A DNA stretch of 34,895 nt from Candidatus Gastranaerophilales bacterium. GTDB taxonomy: Bacteria > Cyanobacteriota > Vampirovibrionia > Gastranaerophilales > Gastranaerophilaceae. Where the stretch lies: the NCBI GenBank assembly GCA_944326535.1, contig CALVEJ010000015.1, positions 1-34,895 of the forward strand, read 5' to 3'. The position numbers and the translations under genes are program-made. Below the pieces are notes generated by a model. That model had not been told where the DNA came from. It ran no database searches and saw nothing but the letters and a program-made list of their open reading frames with translations. Positions 5,128 through 21,889 of the stretch are shown here, one piece after another (positions within the stretch are counted from its first letter, which is position 1; each line of letters opens with the position of its first letter).

Positions 5128-7029
5128 TTATTCCTGAGCATTATTTTCTTGAATATCATCTTGTTCTTCTATCTGAGAAGAATCAACAAAAGGTGTCTCT
5201 CTGTACATTTTTATTCGGGAAATTCTTCTTCCGTCAATTTCAAGAATTGTATATGTAATATTTTTGTCTTCAATCACATCATTCAATTCCGGTTCACGAC
5301 CCAGCAAACCGAAAATATATCCGCCCAGTGTTTGGAAATCTTCGTTTGGAATATCAAGGTCAAATCTTTTATTTATGTCTTCAATATCCATTTTGCATGA
5401 GACATTGAGCGTGTTGTCATCAATTTTTACAACTTCAGGAGTTTCTACCTTGTCAAACTCATCATAGATTTCTCCGACAATTTCTTCAAGAATATCTTCA
5501 ATGGTTACAATCCCGGCAATTCCGCCATGTTCGTCCACAACGGCGGCAATTTGATTTTTTGAAGATGTAAAATCGCTCAGCAGGTCTGAGATAAATTTGT
5601 TTTCAGGAACAATAAGAATTTCTCTTGCGAGCGACTCAATAGAGAAGTTTTCGTCTATATTGTTGTTTTTGATTACTTTCAAGACATCTTTTGCATTTAT
5701 GATACCTATTATGTTATCCACATTGTCTCTGTATACAGGAATTCTTGTATGTCCTGAGCTTATGATTAGATCAGCCAGAGTATTAATATCCGCCTGAACA
5801 TTTATCATATATATTTCAGTACGTGGAATCATAATCTCTTTTACAACGGTATTTGCAAACCCAAAGAAATTTGAAAGCATTTTTGCTTCATGGCTGTCTA
5901 TTGTTTCTATTTTTTCGCCTTCTTTGATAAGTTTATGGAATTTCTCTTCCCAGTTGTCTTCCGCATCGTGCGCCTGAAGTTCGATTGTGATATGTGTAAT
6001 ATTTTTGATTTCTTTTTTGATTTTTCTCTCAAGCATGTCGGCAATATCGTCGGCATCTTTCATCTGTGTTTCGGGATCAACCTCTATTGTCATATTGATA
6101 ATCAATCCGGATGAGCCGAGATCAATTGTTTTTAATTCCAACACACCGGTAATGCCGTGAATAGTCGATGCAACCTGTCTGATTTTTTCTTCAACATCAG
6201 GTTCTGCCGATTGAACAGTTAAGCTGCTTACATTGTTTTTCAAAAGATATATTGCAAGGAAAAACAGTATCGTACCGATTATTATAGAAGCAATGGCATC
6301 GGGGACATAAGCCAATCCGTCCGGCATAACAAATTTTGCCGTTGTCAATGCCGCAAAAGCAACAATTACACCTGTTAGAGCGGCAGTATCTTCATACCAG
6401 ACAAATTTTGTTGTCGGGCTTTTAATTTCTCTTATATATTTTATTGAGCGGAAAAATTCTTTTACCGGATTTTTTTCTTCAATTCCGACTTCATGCAAAA
6501 CTGCTTTTGATGCACTCACAACAGCCCATGCTTCAAAACAAATACTGCAAATCAACGCAATGGCAATTGCATTGTAATGAAGAAGCAAATCACTGGCATC
6601 ATGTGCTTGAATAAGTTTTTCAAAACCATGGTATATTGCCACAAAAGTACCACCGAGCATCAATATAGAAGCAAACATTGCCCAGACATTTGCCTCCAGT
6701 CCGTAACCGAACGGATGGGCATTGTCGGCAGGTCTTGAGCCCCTTTTAATTCCGACAAGAAGACAGATGCTGTTGAATGAATCCACGCCTGAGTGAATGG
6801 CTTCAGCAAGCATGGCGGAACTGGAAGAGAAAAAGAAACAAATCAGTTTGACAAGGGCAATTCCAAGATTTGCAATCAGGGCTTTAATTACAGCCATGAA
6901 TTTGGAATTGTCTATTTTTTCTCTTTCAAGACAGCTCATCTCCTCTTGTGAGTATTCATCTATGCTGTCATTATCTTTAATATCCTGCGAGTCGTTTTTT
7001 AGTTCAAGGTTGTTACTGTCAGATGACAT
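5128..7029 (-). CDS. CDF metal transporter fused to CBS pair and CorC/HlyC domain
   Basis: This single 633-residue frame joins two transporter architectures. Residues about 42-270 form a cation diffusion facilitator membrane domain of the ZnT9-like type, with H79xxxD83 in TM2, the HPFGYGLE loop (105-112) and EDTAAL (213-218) replacing the second HxxxD. Residues about 275-352 are the CDF cytoplasmic dimerisation domain. After a linker come two CBS domains (about 398-455 and 462-520; signatures EIMIPRTEIY, SGHTRIPVY, VVDEHGGIAGIVT, EDILEEIVGEI), then a CorC_HlyC domain (about 535-610). CBS pairs plus CorC_HlyC normally follow a DUF21/CNNM membrane domain in Mg/Co transporters; here CDF replaces it. 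Metal-cation export gated by nucleotide binding is inferred. Upstream are AAGGA and a good promoter. No frameshift or internal stop is seen. Confidence 0.93.
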   Translation of the reverse strand: MSSDSNNLELKNDSQDIKDNDSIDEYSQEEMSCLEREKIDNSKFMAVIKALIANLGIALVKLICFFFSSSSAMLAEAIHSGVDSFNSICLLVGIKRGSRPADNAHPFGYGLEANVWAMFASILMLGGTFVAIYHGFEKLIQAHDASDLLLHYNAIAIALICSICFEAWAVVSASKAVLHEVGIEEKNPVKEFFRSIKYIREIKSPTTKFVWYEDTAALTGVIVAFAALTTAKFVMPDGLAYVPDAIASIIIGTILFFLAIYLLKNNVSSLTVQSAEPDVEEKIRQVASTIHGITGVLELKTIDLGSSGLIINMTIEVDPETQMKDADDIADMLERKIKKEIKNITHITIELQAHDAEDNWEEKFHKLIKEGEKIETIDSHEAKMLSNFFGFANTVVKEIMIPRTEIYMINVQADINTLADLIISSGHTRIPVYRDNVDNIIGIINAKDVLKVIKNNNIDENFSIESLAREILIVPENKFISDLLSDFTSSKNQIAAVVDEHGGIAGIVTIEDILEEIVGEIYDEFDKVETPEVVKIDDNTLNVSCKMDIEDINKRFDLDIPNEDFQTLGGYIFGLLGREPELNDVIEDKNITYTILEIDGRRISRIKMYRETPFVDSSQIEEQDDIQENNAQE

Positions 7030-7058
7030 CTTTTATCCTTATAGCTTTAACAGTATAT

Positions 7059-7207: not shown

Positions 7208-8272
7208 ATGGACATCAAAGCTATCAGCACACTATCGTTGCCTTCTGTATCAAGTTACGCACAGCCTGCAAAAAGCCAAAACACTTCAACCGGTGCGTCA
7301 ACAACAAATATGCAGGATAAAATTTCTAAAAAAATACCTGCTGAAGTTAAAAAGAATTTGCCGTATTATGCAGGTTCGGCAGTGCTTGGTCTGGTGATAG
7401 GCTGTTTCATAAAAGGCAAAGGGAATATGAGTGAGAAAGCTCTTCAAAATTTAAAGAACAAAATTATAGAAGAATTAAATCAGGAACAAAAGAAAAATAT
7501 TACGGATGAAATTAAGCAGCTTTTAGACAAAAAAGATAAAATTCTTGCTGAACTGAAGGAAATTAGTCAGGAATTAAAAAATAAAACAGATGAAGTTAGA
7601 AATATTATGAAAGAAGAAACCAAACAAAAGACTGTAACAAATCTGGATGAACTGACTAATAATATGAAGAAAAATCTTTCTCAAAAAACAAATAGTCCTG
7701 CAGTCACAAAAACAGAAGAAGCAGTAAAAACAGAAATTAAAAACAAGCCTTTCTTGCTTTTGGCAGAACATAAAGCAACTGAGGAAGAAAAGGCTCTTAA
7801 AGAGGCAAAAAAATCCTTAAATCTTTTGAACGACGATATTATTTCAAAAATAATGAAAAACAGAAAGTCCGAGGCCTCTGAAATTGACAGAATTGTCGGA
7901 GAAAATATAAAAGACGGGCATGTTGATATGAATATTATGAGAAAAGTTGCCCGTGATTTTTCTGCTGATCAGAAAAATAGAGGAGAAAACCGTTTTCATC
8001 AGGCAGCGGATATTCTGGAACAATCATATCTGAGAGAATTTATTAAGGCTAATGAAAAAGGCTCTTTTGGATTGGATGAAATGTACAATACGATGAAGAA
8101 TGATTCTGATCTGTTCTCTATTTACAAACAAATGCCGGTTGAAGAATCCGCAAACAGACTAAACTATATTGTATACAATGATTTGCTTAAATATGCACCG
8201 GAAAAAGGAATGACAAAAGAAGAGTTCTTTGAAAAAATGCTGGCAAAATTGTTTATGCAGTCGCAGAAATAA
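7208..8272 (+). CDS. Uncharacterised coiled-coil membrane protein
   Basis: The family is not recognised. The 354-residue protein begins with about 40 Ser/Ala/Thr-rich, probably disordered residues with no signal peptide. One hydrophobic segment follows (about 51-67, YYAGSAVLGLVIGCF) and ends in a basic KGKG. Next is a long Lys/Glu-rich coiled-coil (about 70-165) and an alpha-helical C-terminal domain with acidic, Asn/Asp-rich patches. GGGAG seven bases before ATG is a clear ribosome binding site. The layout (short disordered leader, one membrane helix, coiled coil) resembles the gene at 13012. It is a single gene; its stop codon abuts that of the convergent PPC-domain gene. Role unknown. Confidence 0.8.
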   Translation: MDIKAISTLSLPSVSSYAQPAKSQNTSTGASTTNMQDKISKKIPAEVKKNLPYYAGSAVLGLVIGCFIKGKGNMSEKALQNLKNKIIEELNQEQKKNITDEIKQLLDKKDKILAELKEISQELKNKTDEVRNIMKEETKQKTVTNLDELTNNMKKNLSQKTNSPAVTKTEEAVKTEIKNKPFLLLAEHKATEEEKALKEAKKSLNLLNDDIISKIMKNRKSEASEIDRIVGENIKDGHVDMNIMRKVARDFSADQKNRGENRFHQAADILEQSYLREFIKANEKGSFGLDEMYNTMKNDSDLFSIYKQMPVEESANRLNYIVYNDLLKYAPEKGMTKEEFFEKMLAKLFMQSQK

Positions 8273-13011: not shown

Positions 13012-14712
13012 ATGACTTTAAATATTTCAGGCAGAAACAATATATATAAAGATTTTTCAATGTCCGGACAAACCGTGGCACCTTTGTCTTCTCTGCCTGC
13101 CGGACAAACAGCACCTCCGCCTGTTGCCGCTGTAAGAGTATCTGATGTTGAGGGAGATAAAAAAGGCAACGGCAAAAAGATTTTCGGTATCATTGGTATT
13201 TCTGTCGGATCTGTTGCTTTGCTGACGCTTATAGGTCTTTTTACATTATCAAAAGGTTTTTCAAGCGGATTTTCACAAAAGCTGAACAAGTTGTCAAAAT
13301 CTTTGCAGAAAAAGATTTATGACCTTTCTTCAAGCACAAAAGAACTGACAGCTTCACAAAAAATGAAACTCAAAGTCAGCCAGACCCTAAAACCCATGGC
13401 AGATACCATGCAGGCAGCATCAAATATTTCTGCAATAAAAGACAGCTGGATCAGACACTGGCTCAAAAAACTTAAACTTGAACCGGTTATCAAAAAAATG
13501 AACAATGTTTTCAGAAATATTGTTATAAAAAACACAAAAAACTATTACTCAAAAGCTGAATCTGCAAATCTGAAATTCTGTTCATATCTCGATGATTTGA
13601 TAAAACAGGCTGATGATCCGCAAATAAAGTCACAACTGAAAGATTATGCCCAAAAGTTAAAAGATTCTTTCCAGAACAACTTTACAACCGCAGCTCATTA
13701 CGAACGTGCGGATAAGGCATACAAAAAAATGTACGGACTTGACGAAAAAGTTTACAACAAACTTTTTGGAGGAGACGGGCTTTTAAAGAATTTAAAAAAT
13801 GCAAAATCATATGTCACAACAGACTATGTTGCATATGACAAAAAATCCCTTGCAAAGTATTTATACGGACAAAAAGCAAAATTTTCAAACAACGTCAATG
13901 ACAGTTACAACAGCATAAAACAGCTGATAAACGAAATAAAAATCCATGTTGATCCTCAGGATACAAAAGCTGTGGATATTGTCAAAAAACTGAGCGAAGC
14001 GCTTGAAAAGTACAAAAACGCAGCAGGGGCACAGGAAGCAGAACTGAGAAAAGCCGCTGTTCAAGAACTCAGAACAGAAATGAAAAATCTGTCTCGAATA
14101 TTCAGAGAAAACGACCAATATGCCGATATTGTAAAAAATTCTCATGAAAAGATGACAGAGTTCTACAAAGCTATTGATGTACAAAGTACTCAAAAAGGTC
14201 TTGCTCAGGATGCAATTACCTTTATCAAAGAAAAATACGGAAAAAATTCTTCCCAATATAAAGAGGCAAAGCGGATTACAAATGAAATCAACAACAATCT
14301 CAATAATGCGATAAACTCGGAACTGAATTCATTTGACAAATTGGCTGAACTTCAGGTTGGCTCACTGCCTACGGATATTCTCGGCATTTTGGGTCCGACG
14401 GCGCTGGGCACACTGCTTGTTGTAAACTCAAAAGACAAGAATGAAAGAATTTCAAAAACACTTACACAGGGCGTTCCTATCATAGGCGGTGTCGGTGTTA
14501 CATACTATGGTACAACAAGGGGCTGGACAGGAGCCAGAAACCTTATGCTCGGTGCTGTTACCAGCGTACTATTGAATATAATAGGCACAAAAGCTGATGA
14601 ATTATACAAAAAATATGCGGAAAAACAGAGTATTTTACAAACCGCATATGATGCCTGGAATAAACTGCAAGGTAAAGACACAACCGTAATTGCATCTGCG
14701 GATCAAAAATAA
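13012..14712 (+). CDS. Uncharacterised large coiled-coil membrane protein
   Basis: The family is not recognised. The 566 residues start with a Ser/Pro/Ala-rich leader (1-55) without a cleavable signal peptide, then one strong hydrophobic segment (about 57-79) ending in a basic SKGF. About 350 residues of Lys-rich helical, coiled-coil-like sequence follow (about 85-440). The C-terminal part (about 448-535) is hydrophobic and Gly-rich (LPTDILGILGPTALGTLL, GVPIIGGVGVTYYG), probably two or three more membrane or membrane-associated helices. The overall plan parallels the protein at 7208 in expanded form. The ribosome binding site is weak (AAGGCAG). TATAAT at 12887-12892 in the AT-rich gap with secA could start a leader of about 115 nt. 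Role unknown. Confidence 0.8.
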   Translation: MTLNISGRNNIYKDFSMSGQTVAPLSSLPAGQTAPPPVAAVRVSDVEGDKKGNGKKIFGIIGISVGSVALLTLIGLFTLSKGFSSGFSQKLNKLSKSLQKKIYDLSSSTKELTASQKMKLKVSQTLKPMADTMQAASNISAIKDSWIRHWLKKLKLEPVIKKMNNVFRNIVIKNTKNYYSKAESANLKFCSYLDDLIKQADDPQIKSQLKDYAQKLKDSFQNNFTTAAHYERADKAYKKMYGLDEKVYNKLFGGDGLLKNLKNAKSYVTTDYVAYDKKSLAKYLYGQKAKFSNNVNDSYNSIKQLINEIKIHVDPQDTKAVDIVKKLSEALEKYKNAAGAQEAELRKAAVQELRTEMKNLSRIFRENDQYADIVKNSHEKMTEFYKAIDVQSTQKGLAQDAITFIKEKYGKNSSQYKEAKRITNEINNNLNNAINSELNSFDKLAELQVGSLPTDILGILGPTALGTLLVVNSKDKNERISKTLTQGVPIIGGVGVTYYGTTRGWTGARNLMLGAVTSVLLNIIGTKADELYKKYAEKQSILQTAYDAWNKLQGKDTTVIASADQK

Positions 14713-16895: not shown

Positions 16896-17335
16896 TAAAA
16901 AAAATCCACAAAATCCCTGACAAAGTTTTTTTTAATGCGGTATTTCTTATTGTAATACTATGGAATTTGAAATATTTCTTTTTGCCTTTGCAGGTGCCGT
17001 TCACAATGATTGCAAAAGATTTTATATGGCAAAATCAATTCTATTCTGCCGTTGAGGCAATAAAAAATGAATCTTCAAAAATAGAAGGATTTCAAGATGA
17101 GGGACAGATAAGTTTTGTCTCTGATATTGCACAAAACAGTGTTTTTGACCTGACGGATACAATAAAATCTTTTTACATTGCACAGTATGCAATAGTTCCT
17201 TCTATATTGAAAAATGATCTAGAACGCAAATATGCGATTGCGGATTTTGAAAAGAAAATTTCGGTGCCGGACGGTTTTTCGGTAGAGAGAAAAGTTAACA
17301 ATAATATTTTTATATTAAAAAGGAATAATAAATGA
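16892..17335 (+). CDS. Small single-pass membrane protein, uncharacterised
   Basis: The family is not recognised. The start at 16892 overlaps the coaE stop in ATGA; an ATG two codons upstream (16886) is equally readable. The 147-residue protein has one N-terminal hydrophobic segment (about 14-36, rich in F/I/L/W) flanked by lysines, then a soluble domain of about 110 residues with mixed alpha/beta character. The topology suggests an anchored domain facing the periplasm. Its stop overlaps the start of the GT-C-like gene in ATGA (17332-17335), so the two proteins are probably made together. By position it may be an accessory subunit of that membrane enzyme; this is inference only. Confidence 0.8.
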   Translation: MIKKIHKIPDKVFFNAVFLIVILWNLKYFFLPLQVPFTMIAKDFIWQNQFYSAVEAIKNESSKIEGFQDEGQISFVSDIAQNSVFDLTDTIKSFYIAQYAIVPSILKNDLERKYAIADFEKKISVPDGFSVERKVNNNIFILKRNNK

Positions 17336-18657
17336 TAAGCGTTGCACTTGCTTTTGGGATTACTCTTTTGAGCGGATATTTTTCGGTTTCAATAATAGAC
17401 AGAGAAATGGAACTGCGTTTCAGACTGCTTTTGTCTATTCCTATGGGTTTTGCCATAAGCTCTGTATTTTATTTTTTGTATCAGTGTTTAAATCTGTATA
17501 ACTTTCAACAGTTTCAATGGTTTGAACTGATTGCGGTTTTGGTGCTTGCTCTTGTATATTTCAACCAGGAAAAACCGGAGTGGTCAAAACACAAATTTAA
17601 AAAACTAAGCAACTGGTTTTATGTAGTAAATATTTATGCACTTGCTATATTTTTAAAATATTTTATAAACAATCCCATGGGAAGCTGGGATGGTTTTCGA
17701 ATTTGGAATATAAAAGCGGAATTTTTGTATCTGCAAAGTCCTTTGTGGAAAAATGTTTTTTCCCTTCCGCATTTTATGTCTCACTGTGATTATCCCATGT
17801 TTTTGCCTTCGTCAGTTGCAAGAATATGGCAGTATGCGGGACAACAGTGTTTTTGGGCAAATATGGTTATAGGACTTTTGTTTACGTTCGGGCTTGTTTA
17901 TCTTTTGTATCAGGCGGTCTGTTATTTTAAAAGCGAAAAAACTGCTGCCGTAGTCTGTACGGTATTTATGATTTCCGATATATTTCTTGTAAACGGAGCT
18001 GCTCAATGCGCCGATATACCGCTTGCGATGTTCTTTTTGAGTGCGGTTGTCTGCCTTTTCTTTTATTTCAAGAACAAAAGATTTACCACTTTTCTTTTGA
18101 GTCTTACCTTTGCGGGTTTGAGCGCCTGGGTAAAAAATGAAGGTTTGATGTTTCTTGTTGTATATTCGATTGTTATGATGTGCTGGTTTGCAGCAAACAA
18201 AAGGATGAAAAAAACTGTTATTACCGCTATACTAACTGCAATTTTCGGTGCATGTATAGTTTTGTACAAAAAGTTTACGGGTGCTCCGAATGATCTGATA
18301 TACGGATTTGTTGAAGTTAAATCATATATGTTTGCATTTGATTTTCATAGATATCTGGTTGTTTTGCAGACATTTTTGACTTTGATGTTCGGAAAGTTTG
18401 TGCTTTTCCTTTCACTTGCAATTCTTGCTATCAAGGGATTTAAGATTAAAGAAAAACTAAAAAAACCGTTTTTGCTGTCCTCTTCGATTTTTTGGCTGAT
18501 GGTTGCAGGGTATATAGCTGTTTATATTCTTGCTCCGCATGATATAAACTGGCTGACCGAAAACTCGATGGAGAGAATAATCCTTCAAATCCTTCCTGTT
18601 TTTGTATTTCTTTTTTCAATCACTCTTAGAATCGGCAAGCCGGATAGTATAAACTAA
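17332..18657 (+). CDS. Polytopic membrane protein, probable GT-C-type glycosyltransferase
   Basis: The 441-residue protein has about ten to twelve predicted membrane helices. Polar residues outside the helices fit the GT-C fold used by lipid-linked-sugar glycosyltransferases: an acidic residue in the first loop (SWDGFRIWN, D120), HCDYP (151-155), QCADIP (D228) at a helix end, and WVKNEG before another helix. GT-C enzymes move a sugar from a polyprenyl-phosphate donor on the outer side of the membrane. No subfamily or substrate is assignable. It is translationally coupled to the preceding small membrane protein and is the last gene of the cysS group. Confidence 0.7.
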   Translation: MISVALAFGITLLSGYFSVSIIDREMELRFRLLLSIPMGFAISSVFYFLYQCLNLYNFQQFQWFELIAVLVLALVYFNQEKPEWSKHKFKKLSNWFYVVNIYALAIFLKYFINNPMGSWDGFRIWNIKAEFLYLQSPLWKNVFSLPHFMSHCDYPMFLPSSVARIWQYAGQQCFWANMVIGLLFTFGLVYLLYQAVCYFKSEKTAAVVCTVFMISDIFLVNGAAQCADIPLAMFFLSAVVCLFFYFKNKRFTTFLLSLTFAGLSAWVKNEGLMFLVVYSIVMMCWFAANKRMKKTVITAILTAIFGACIVLYKKFTGAPNDLIYGFVEVKSYMFAFDFHRYLVVLQTFLTLMFGKFVLFLSLAILAIKGFKIKEKLKKPFLLSSSIFWLMVAGYIAVYILAPHDINWLTENSMERIILQILPVFVFLFSITLRIGKPDSIN

Positions 18658-19309: not shown

Positions 19310-19357
19310 ATTATCAGTTAGGTCAAATTTGTAGAAAAGTTGCGGAGTTACCGTTTT

Positions 19358-21889
19358 ATGGCAGAAAATAAAAACGAAAAGAAAAAGAATTATTTAACAA
19401 TACACGGGCATTTTTACCAGCCGCCGAGAGAAAACCCCTGGCTGGAAGCAATTGAGCTGCAAGATAGTGCGCTGCCTTTTCATGATTGGAATGAAAGGGT
19501 AAATCTTGAGTGTTACAATCCGAACTCCGCATCGAGAATTGTGGATGCAAACAACAAAGTTCTTGATATAGTCAACAACTATTCGTTGATGAGCTACAAT
19601 TTCGGACCGACTCTTTTGTCCTGGATGGAAAAACATGCCCCGAAAACCTATGAAAGAGTAATAAAAGCGGATATTGTGAGCCGTGTAAAATTTTCCGGAC
19701 ACGGAAATGCTATAGCACAGGTTTACAACCATATGATTATGCCGCTGGCAAACAGGCATGATAAAGAAACTCAGGTTAGATGGGGTATCAGAGATTTTGA
19801 ATACAGGTTTGGAAGAATGCCGGAGGGTATGTGGCTTGCAGAAACTGCTGTGGATGACGAAACCCTTGAGGTTCTTGCTGACAACGGTATAAAATTTACT
19901 ATACTTTCACCTTATCAGGCGCAAAGCTACAGAAAACTCGGTGACAAAGAATGGACCGATGCGGGCTGGGGAAATATTGACCCCGCAAAACCATACAGAT
20001 ATTTTATAAAATCAAATCCGAAAAAATTTATTGATCTGTTCTTCTATGACGGTGCAATTTCAAAATCCGTTGCGTTTGACAATATTCTCCAAGACGGCAA
20101 CAAATTTGTAAACAGACTCAAAGACGGATTGTCCGATGCAAGAGGATATTCACAGCTTGTGAACATCGGCACCGACGGTGAAAGCTACGGACACCATACA
20201 AAATTCGGCGATATGGCTCTTGCTTATGTTTTGAGGGTGAAAGCCAAAGATGCGGGATTTACTATTACAAATTATGCTGAATATCTCGACAGATACGGCG
20301 TAAAAGATGAAGTTGACATAAAACAGGCATCTTCATGGAGCTGTTTCCATGGTGTCGGCAGATGGAAAGAAGACTGCGGATGCTCTACAGGCGGACAGCC
20401 CAGCTGGAACCAGAAATGGAGAAAACCGCTGAGAGATGCATTTGATTATCTAAGAGACAAACTCGCCGTGTTGTACGAAAAACAAGGCAAGAAATTTTTC
20501 ACAAAAAATCCATGGGATGTTCGTAATGAATACATAAATGTTATTTTGGACAGAAGCGAACTTTCTATCAAAAATTTCTTCAGAAATAATCTTAAACCTG
20601 AATGCAATGATCAGGATAAAGTCGCCGCAATGAAACTTTTGGAAATTCAAAGACAGGCAATGCTTATGTATACAAGCTGCGGATGGTTTTTTGCCGATAT
20701 TTCCGGAATTGAAACAACACAGATTATGAAATATGCTGCCCGTGCAATGCAGCTTGCGGCAAGTTTCAGTGATGAAGATTACGAAACAGAGTTTGTAAAT
20801 ATCCTTTCAAATGCACACAGCAATATAAAAGAATTCGGCACTGGTGCCGATATTTACAAAAAATTCGTAAAACCCTCAGTTGTTACAATAAAACAAATTG
20901 CGAGCCTCTGGGCAATCGTGTCTCTGTATGAAGATGTGGAAGATGAAACAACATTGTACTGCTACGACATAAAACGCTTGAATTACAAAACTGTTTCAAA
21001 GGGTAAAAACGGTCTGTATATTGGTCGTGTGGCAATCAAATCTCAAATCACTCTTGAAAAATATGATCTGATTTTTGCTCTTCTGAAATATTCGGGCGGT
21101 GATTTCCATTGTGCAATAAAAGAATATTCTACGGCAGAAGAATTTAATGAAATCCAAAAAAATCTTACTTCCACTTTTGTAAATTATCCTCTGACAGAGA
21201 TAATAAGAAGTCTGGATAAAAACTTTGGAACAGAATATTACACGCTCAAGGATATCTTTATTGAAGAAAGAAGAAAAATCCTTAATGTAATGATTCAGGG
21301 CAAGACAAACAAATTCTCCGGTCTGTACAAAGATATTTACGAAGACGGAAAAGCATCTATTTTCCACTTCAAAAATCTCGGTTTAACTCCGCCGGACGAA
21401 TTCAAAATTGCGGCAAGATACGTACTGGGTATTGAGTTTAGCAAACAGTTTGAAAACGCTGACAAAATCATTAATGAACATGATTTGCAAGAAGCGATTG
21501 ATATTAACAATGAAGCAAAAATGCTTGATGTTACTCTGGATAAAAAACTGGCAAACAAAATCTTTACCGAAAAAGTTACGGATGCTATGTATGCACTTGC
21601 AAAAAATCCTGAAATACACAGAATTGAAACCGTGCTCAATTTGTTCAAATATGTTGACCTGCTTGAACTTCGTATTGATACATCAGAAGCGCAGAACACG
21701 TATTTTAACAAAATACATGAAATTCTTGAAGAAGTCGTTTCAAATATTGATGAACTCAAAGACGAGTATGACAGAAAATTTGTGCTTCTTCTGCTTGAAC
21801 TCGGCAACAAATTGAATATTAACACTGACTTTTACAAACAAACCTTTGATAAAGTTATGTCACCATTGTATTCACAAACAAAGAAATAG
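19358..21889 (+). CDS. GH57 family glycosidase with DUF3536 region
   Basis: The 843-residue cytoplasmic-looking protein begins with IHGHFYQPPRENPW, the first conserved GH57 region, and continues with GHGNAIAQVYNH, PEGMWLAETAVD (about 154-165, containing the expected catalytic Glu) and GTDGESYGHH (about 270-280, containing the acid/base Asp). The C-terminal half corresponds to the DUF3536 region of alpha-amylase/alpha-mannosidase-like proteins. GH57 enzymes cleave or rearrange alpha-glucans with retention, so a role in glycogen-type polysaccharide metabolism is likely but not proven. ATG 19358 is preferred over the in-frame TTG at 19340. There is no signal peptide. Confidence 0.88.
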   Translation: MAENKNEKKKNYLTIHGHFYQPPRENPWLEAIELQDSALPFHDWNERVNLECYNPNSASRIVDANNKVLDIVNNYSLMSYNFGPTLLSWMEKHAPKTYERVIKADIVSRVKFSGHGNAIAQVYNHMIMPLANRHDKETQVRWGIRDFEYRFGRMPEGMWLAETAVDDETLEVLADNGIKFTILSPYQAQSYRKLGDKEWTDAGWGNIDPAKPYRYFIKSNPKKFIDLFFYDGAISKSVAFDNILQDGNKFVNRLKDGLSDARGYSQLVNIGTDGESYGHHTKFGDMALAYVLRVKAKDAGFTITNYAEYLDRYGVKDEVDIKQASSWSCFHGVGRWKEDCGCSTGGQPSWNQKWRKPLRDAFDYLRDKLAVLYEKQGKKFFTKNPWDVRNEYINVILDRSELSIKNFFRNNLKPECNDQDKVAAMKLLEIQRQAMLMYTSCGWFFADISGIETTQIMKYAARAMQLAASFSDEDYETEFVNILSNAHSNIKEFGTGADIYKKFVKPSVVTIKQIASLWAIVSLYEDVEDETTLYCYDIKRLNYKTVSKGKNGLYIGRVAIKSQITLEKYDLIFALLKYSGGDFHCAIKEYSTAEEFNEIQKNLTSTFVNYPLTEIIRSLDKNFGTEYYTLKDIFIEERRKILNVMIQGKTNKFSGLYKDIYEDGKASIFHFKNLGLTPPDEFKIAARYVLGIEFSKQFENADKIINEHDLQEAIDINNEAKMLDVTLDKKLANKIFTEKVTDAMYALAKNPEIHRIETVLNLFKYVDLLELRIDTSEAQNTYFNKIHEILEEVVSNIDELKDEYDRKFVLLLLELGNKLNINTDFYKQTFDKVMSPLYSQTKK

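Follow-up and report, generated by a model that had tools for sequence, protein, structure and literature searches.

The join of a ZnT9-like CDF transporter to a CBS pair and a CorC_HlyC domain is real, ancient and retained within the class Vampirovibrionia. The gene described here lies in a stretch of 34,895 nucleotides from a Candidatus Gastranaerophilales bacterium (contig CALVEJ010000015.1, hereafter the window), part of an assembly of 1.97 Mb in 107 contigs, and occupies positions 5128-7029 of the minus strand. On present sequence evidence there is a somewhat better than even chance that the product is a dimeric ZnT9-like CDF exporting a divalent metal, with an activity controlled at its CBS-CorC part by an adenine nucleotide, most likely MgATP. 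The fuller proposal, that of an ancient, class-wide CDF exporter gated directly by MgATP or cell energy charge, its CBS-CorC module being rigidly joined to the dimerisation domain, would fall slightly short of an even chance.

Frame and domain architecture

The fusion gene runs unbroken from ATG to stop over 633 codons, and the sequence AAGGA, likely its ribosome-binding site, is found 6 nt 5' of the ATG (7036-7040). The complete 633-residue protein begins with a variable N-terminal tail (residues 1-44; 6898-7029), with a conservation of 20% and a pLDDT below 40, followed by a CDF transmembrane domain of six helices with the YiiP fold (residues 45-272; 6214-6897) and by the CDF cytoplasmic dimerisation domain, ZT_dimer, with the fold of the MamM cytoplasmic domain (residues 277-350; 5980-6201). 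A two-helix linker, which by alignment and model is the counterpart of the CorB acidic helical bundle (residues 355-395; 5845-5967), then leads to a CBS pair with a predicted MgATP-type pocket (residues 396-522; 5464-5844) and to a CorC_HlyC domain (residues 535-610; 5200-5427), all of these features being on the minus strand. Every Pfam match exceeds its curated cut-off: Cation_efflux at 50-270 (E 1e-31; 110 bits, cut-off 26.6), ZT_dimer at 277-350 (2e-11), two CBS stretches (8e-15), of which the first covers 396-454, and CorC_HlyC at 535-610 (6e-20). NCBIfam places residues 48-354 in the CDF superfamily (146 bits, cut-off 82) and gives CorC/GldE-type matches across approximately 353-608, while sequence matches in the PDB split by half, the first half matching FieF/YiiP and the cytoplasmic domain of MamM and the second CorC/CorB. 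Pfam, PDB sequence and fold matches all give the same order, a CBS pair and then CorC_HlyC. The first-pass annotation, which had described a single uninterrupted CDF-CBS-CBS-CorC_HlyC frame and had read its tail as a CBS pair with CorC_HlyC, agrees with these searches. The CNNM/DUF21 domain (PF01595) was absent from the fusion protein in the Pfam search; for comparison, the separate CNNM protein of one relative matched the same profile at 189 bits.

An AlphaFold2 model of the window protein, built as a single chain with 31 relatives, reached a mean pLDDT of 72 and a pTM of 0.42; its single domains are usable and the relative placement of the domains is not. In the model the linker forms two helices (360-373 and 379-395). 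Foldseek retrieved CorC, MtCorB and YiiP with this model, and VIA-align superposed residues 276-355 on the MamM cytoplasmic domain (Z 13.8, rmsd 1.5 over 79 residues), residues 357-520 on residues 164-324 of MtCorB R235L (Z 15.7, rmsd 3.0) and residues 531-611 on a CorC domain (Z 14.8, rmsd 1.4). Residues 37-356 share the CDF fold of YiiP/FieF (Z ~20), with a large rmsd of ~10, as would be expected if the two domains of the chain are placed differently.

Distribution, authenticity and origin

A domain search over related genomes had been proposed as the check on the first description, and it found the fusion conserved: 128 full-length fused frames were recovered from many Vampirovibrionia genomes, and dereplication at 88% identity reduced them to the 48 sequences used for the residue counts. 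These frames come from Gastranaerophilales and from three further families (f10, f50 and f51), reaching down to about 36-44% identity. Each same-genus genome that was examined encodes the fusion as a single frame, as do most other families of Gastranaerophilales; the fusion is missing from most other genera within the window's own family, which suggests loss or a patchy distribution there. Within a class-wide sample, a match at E <= 1e-70 occurred in 94 of 382 genomes and in 25 of 97 genera, and almost all of these matches were full-length (609-690 aa), the exception being one frame that ends at a contig edge. Among near relatives, dN/dS is about 0.02-0.10 in every domain and at the junction where it was estimable, some estimates being saturated, so that strong purifying selection acts on all domains of the fusion, junction included, wherever the ratio could be estimated. 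That an assembly or frame error merged two adjacent genes, the possibility raised against the fusion when it was first annotated, has a negligible probability, since it is contradicted by 128 independent single-frame fusions, by a linker length constant in 48/48 and by the selection on the junction; the one setting that lends it colour is a plasmid of Azospirillum ramasamyi on which a CDF gene and a hemolysin-family (CNNM-type) gene stand side by side, unfused and 399 nt apart. Chance or misassembly as the source of the fusion is excluded.

Other public sequences were also searched. The all-species contig scan used seeds from the window sequence alone and missed even relatives at 39% identity, which makes it uninformative on other phyla. 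Plasmid records gave 494 matches, and none among the matches listed is annotated as a fusion. One public record labelled 'uncultured Clostridia bacterium' (L016) contains the fusion, at 85% identity, and is apparently a Gastranaerophilales genome under a wrong label.

Each half of the fusion has a single origin. A maximum-likelihood analysis of their CBS-CorC parts groups the 48 fusions in one clade (100/99), which splits broadly by family and stands apart from the CNNM modules that these genomes also encode; a quick tree for the CDF half, calculated without eukaryotic ZnT9, again gives one clade (SH-aLRT 92), which adjoins standalone relatives and lies far from FieF. In a phylum sample, at E <= 1e-18, all 37 of the 37 in-class matches to the CDF half belong to fused frames, no such match came from class genomes that lack the fusion, and the matches in 12 other cyanobacterial genomes are all standalone proteins. 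Outside the fusion, the ZnT9-like CDFs of this sample stand alone and its CBS-CorC modules are carried by CNNM domains. The first-pass annotation had supposed that the membrane part had been 'swapped', and the CNNM ancestor implied by this wording is not shown by the CBS-CorC tree, the fused modules being a clade of their own. A simple replacement of CNNM is likewise unsupported, because many genomes carry the fusion together with a separate CNNM protein. Adjoining CDF and CorC genes in sister lineages were considered as the precursor and rejected, as no CorC-type gene was present within ~3-4 kb on each side of the standalone CDFs at 12 cyanobacterial loci. On the Azospirillum plasmid (L134:3905-6586) the CDF gene is ZnT9-like and the hemolysin-family gene follows it on the same strand; as evidence of a precursor this pair is a lone case.

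The neighbours of the fusion gene in the window encode a methyltransferase, a PCC-domain protein and a response regulator, and are common to near relatives only; no conserved partner or metal-homeostasis neighbour was found in the loci examined, and a search for metal riboswitches in the window and 11 relatives gave no Rfam match but tRNAs. At nine loci of families f10 and f51 (L102, L114-L118, L121, L123 and L130) the fusion lies closely 3' of an FlhA (FHIPEP) gene on the same strand, a pair that is usually preceded in turn by FlhB- and FliR-type genes. A small membrane-like protein is encoded between FlhA and the fusion at L130:4233-4712 and similarly elsewhere, in seven loci (median gap 163 nt); this protein, of ~160 codons in L130, has no Pfam match and is a possible partner of FlhA or of the fusion. 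Elsewhere in the window, the frames 7208-8272, 13012-14712 and 17332-18657 (354, 566 and 441 aa) had no Pfam match at the thresholds used, and an 849-aa frame (19340-21889) carries a GH57 domain and then DUF3536, with TTG as its called, though uncertain, start.

The CDF half

The metal motif of TM2 is H79-xxx-D83 (6781-6795), where E. coli FieF has D45-xxx-D49, and that of TM5 is V210-WYE-D214 (6388-6402), with E213, where FieF has H153-xxx-D157. The ZnT9-like cluster is marked by VxxxD in TM5 and by a His at signature position 10 in TM2 (Montanini 2007, PMC1868760), and both marks, H79 and V210xxxD214, are present in 48/48 fusions, in keeping with the original assignment of the CDF part as ZnT9-like. 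H79, D83, E76, E112, E166, V210, E213, D214 and D244 are invariant among the 48 fusions. The same HxxxD and VxxxD motifs are found in ZnT9-like (SLC30A9-like) CDFs, and the cyanobacterial standalone members, at 29-38% identity, also share E76, E112, E166 and E213 with the fusion; the standalone proteins differ in being only 309-376 aa long, with neither CBS nor CorC. The extended CDF signature, from TM2 to the start of TM3, is matched as a whole by 0/48 fusions and, up to its conserved Gly, by 43/48, the break being at the K/Q/R position, here L111. As 7/12 standalone ZnT9-like relatives match it, this signature is not strict for the ZnT9-like cluster, and profile and fold evidence are decisive for the CDF membership of the fusion despite the mismatch. 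The most likely substrate would be Zn2+, possibly with Mn, Fe or Co; zinc is here a default guess, and a review of CDF sites holds that site composition does not determine selectivity (PMC7949119).

YiiP has a site A of the D/D/H/D type, a zinc-binding site C and a K77-D207 charge interlock (PMC6465983), and the latter two are missing from the fusion. By alignment, the FieF site-C residues H232, H248, H283 and D285 are not retained as a set, the position of K77 is L111 in 48/48, and that of D207 is mostly V or G. The G-x-G-K position, in which the Lys is Lys77 of YiiP, corresponds to residues 108-111 of the fusion (6697-6708 of the window); standalone ZnT9-like relatives mostly have Gln at the Lys77 position, and the invariant Leu111 is a marker of the fused clade. 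Loss of site C as a result of the fusion was rejected, given that the standalone ZnT9-like CDFs are equally without site C and D207, and these losses therefore predate the fusion or are independent of it. With the site-C ligands and both interlock partners absent, the tail might act mainly as a dimer clamp or stability domain that stands in for the missing zinc and interlock and has no physiological gating role, as CorB CBS pairs are known to dimerise with nucleotide; we regard this as improbable, because the standalone proteins lack the same ligands and D207 and yet have no tail, and because a plain clamp would not need the conserved ATP contacts described below. The absence of the YiiP site-C ligands and interlock makes it plausible that another regulatory input exists.

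The CBS-CorC half and its possible working

Residues 361-519 of the fusion align with residues 167-323 of MtCorB, in which an acidic helical bundle (166-199) precedes the CBS pair (200-324) (PMC8242095). Between the dimerisation domain and the first CBS domain (350-396), 48/48 fusions have 47 residues and no indel, and such a fixed length over such divergence suggests a structured connection and not a floppy tether. The MgATP contacts reported for MtCorB are T207, S234, R235, I311, T313 and D316 (PMC8242095). The phosphate contacts S234 and R235 correspond to T428-R429 (5743-5748), with S or T in 48/48 at the first position and R in 46/48 (K in 2) at the second; the ribose contacts T313 and D316 correspond to T509-I-E-D512 (5494-5505), with both T509 and D512 present in 48/48; and I311 corresponds to I507, hydrophobic in 48/48. 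T207, also a ribose contact, is not kept and is replaced by I/V401. The core contact residues are thus retained in 46-48 of the 48 fusions, the T207 equivalent excepted, which makes nucleotide gating plausible.

It has been reported that MgATP closes the CBS pairs of MtCorB into a disc and that loss of ATP parts them, a separation that was proposed to lock the membrane part (PMC8242095). For the fusion we infer the dimer geometry, the predicted ATP binding and the direction of export. In the proposed working, the two CDF cytoplasmic domains of the dimer would pair and both linkers would extend from them as a helical bundle; the two CBS pairs would form a disc that is closed with MgATP and apart without it, and the linker would transmit this change to the CDF cytoplasmic domain and through it to the TM3-TM6 scaffold, which would then allow or block metal/proton exchange. 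By analogy with MtCorB, ATP may be the 'on' signal.

The main rival to nucleotide gating is cation sensing by the tail, in which the CBS-CorC part would read Mg2+ or the transported metal through the acidic linker or through CorC residues and the nucleotide would be structural or constitutive, making the fusion a cation-gated and not an energy-gated exporter. CorC or CBS-CorC domains have been proposed as cytoplasmic cation sensors in Salmonella (PMC12421838), the CorB acidic bundle is thought to bind cations (PMC8242095), and the fusion linker averages 9.7 acidic residues per 37; however, its conservation (mean 0.61, with one invariant position) is poorer than that of the nucleotide contacts, and we consider this explanation rather unlikely, though clearly less so than that of a dimer clamp. 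Nucleotide gating is kept as the preferred reading.

The module itself is known from several contexts. CNNM/CorB/CorC transporters (MtCorB, TpCorC and PaeA) share with the fusion the acidic helical bundle, the CBS pair with MgATP contacts and the CorC_HlyC domain, and differ from it by their CNNM/DUF21 membrane domain. The first-pass annotation had placed CBS/CorC_HlyC modules 'normally' behind such a domain; this statement was too strong, as Salmonella has CBS-CorC on TerC in MgpA/YoaE and YegH, and, with no membrane domain, in CorC (PMC12421838). MgpA (YoaE) and YegH of Salmonella and E. coli resemble the fusion in having an unrelated membrane transport domain before the CBS pair and CorC_HlyC, and differ from it in that this domain is TerC and not CDF and that ZT_dimer is lacking; the tail of E. 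coli YoaE has 28% identity to that of the fusion and falls outside the fused clade. MgpA eases cation stress (PMC12421838). Salmonella CvrA is likewise a transporter carrying CorC_HlyC, in this case a Na/H exchanger (PMC12421838), with RCK and without the CBS pair, and it belongs to another transporter family. Since CBS-CorC already occurs on TerC and in soluble form, and CorC_HlyC on an exchanger, the fusion is one more swap involving a mobile control module that was already known.

CBS domains are treated as plug-in modules in a review of transporter regulation, which for CDFs names metal binding at the cytoplasmic domain as the small-molecule control (PMC10710835). No description of a CDF with CBS or CorC was found in the open-access papers searched, which is weak evidence of absence and accords with the earlier impression that the architecture is undescribed. 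What appears to be new is thus the combination, module and transporter family both being known, although the architecture may already stand, uncommented, in protein databases.

The literature suggests a role for CBS-CorC tails in the regulation of transporters, and the CorC_HlyC domain is still without a known function. A CBS-CorC tail conserved on an unrelated and structurally well-understood exporter family amounts to a domain-swap experiment performed by nature. Should the tail gate the CDF, it would be a general switch, and CDFs would gain a nucleotide input besides metal sensing by the cytoplasmic domain; if the gating is by MgATP, the allosteric route would be one that is not known for CDFs, and the CorC module would be a switch that can be transferred between transporters. 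For Vampirovibrionia, relatives of cyanobacteria that lack photosynthesis and live in the gut and the environment, the fusion is a lineage-defining transporter.
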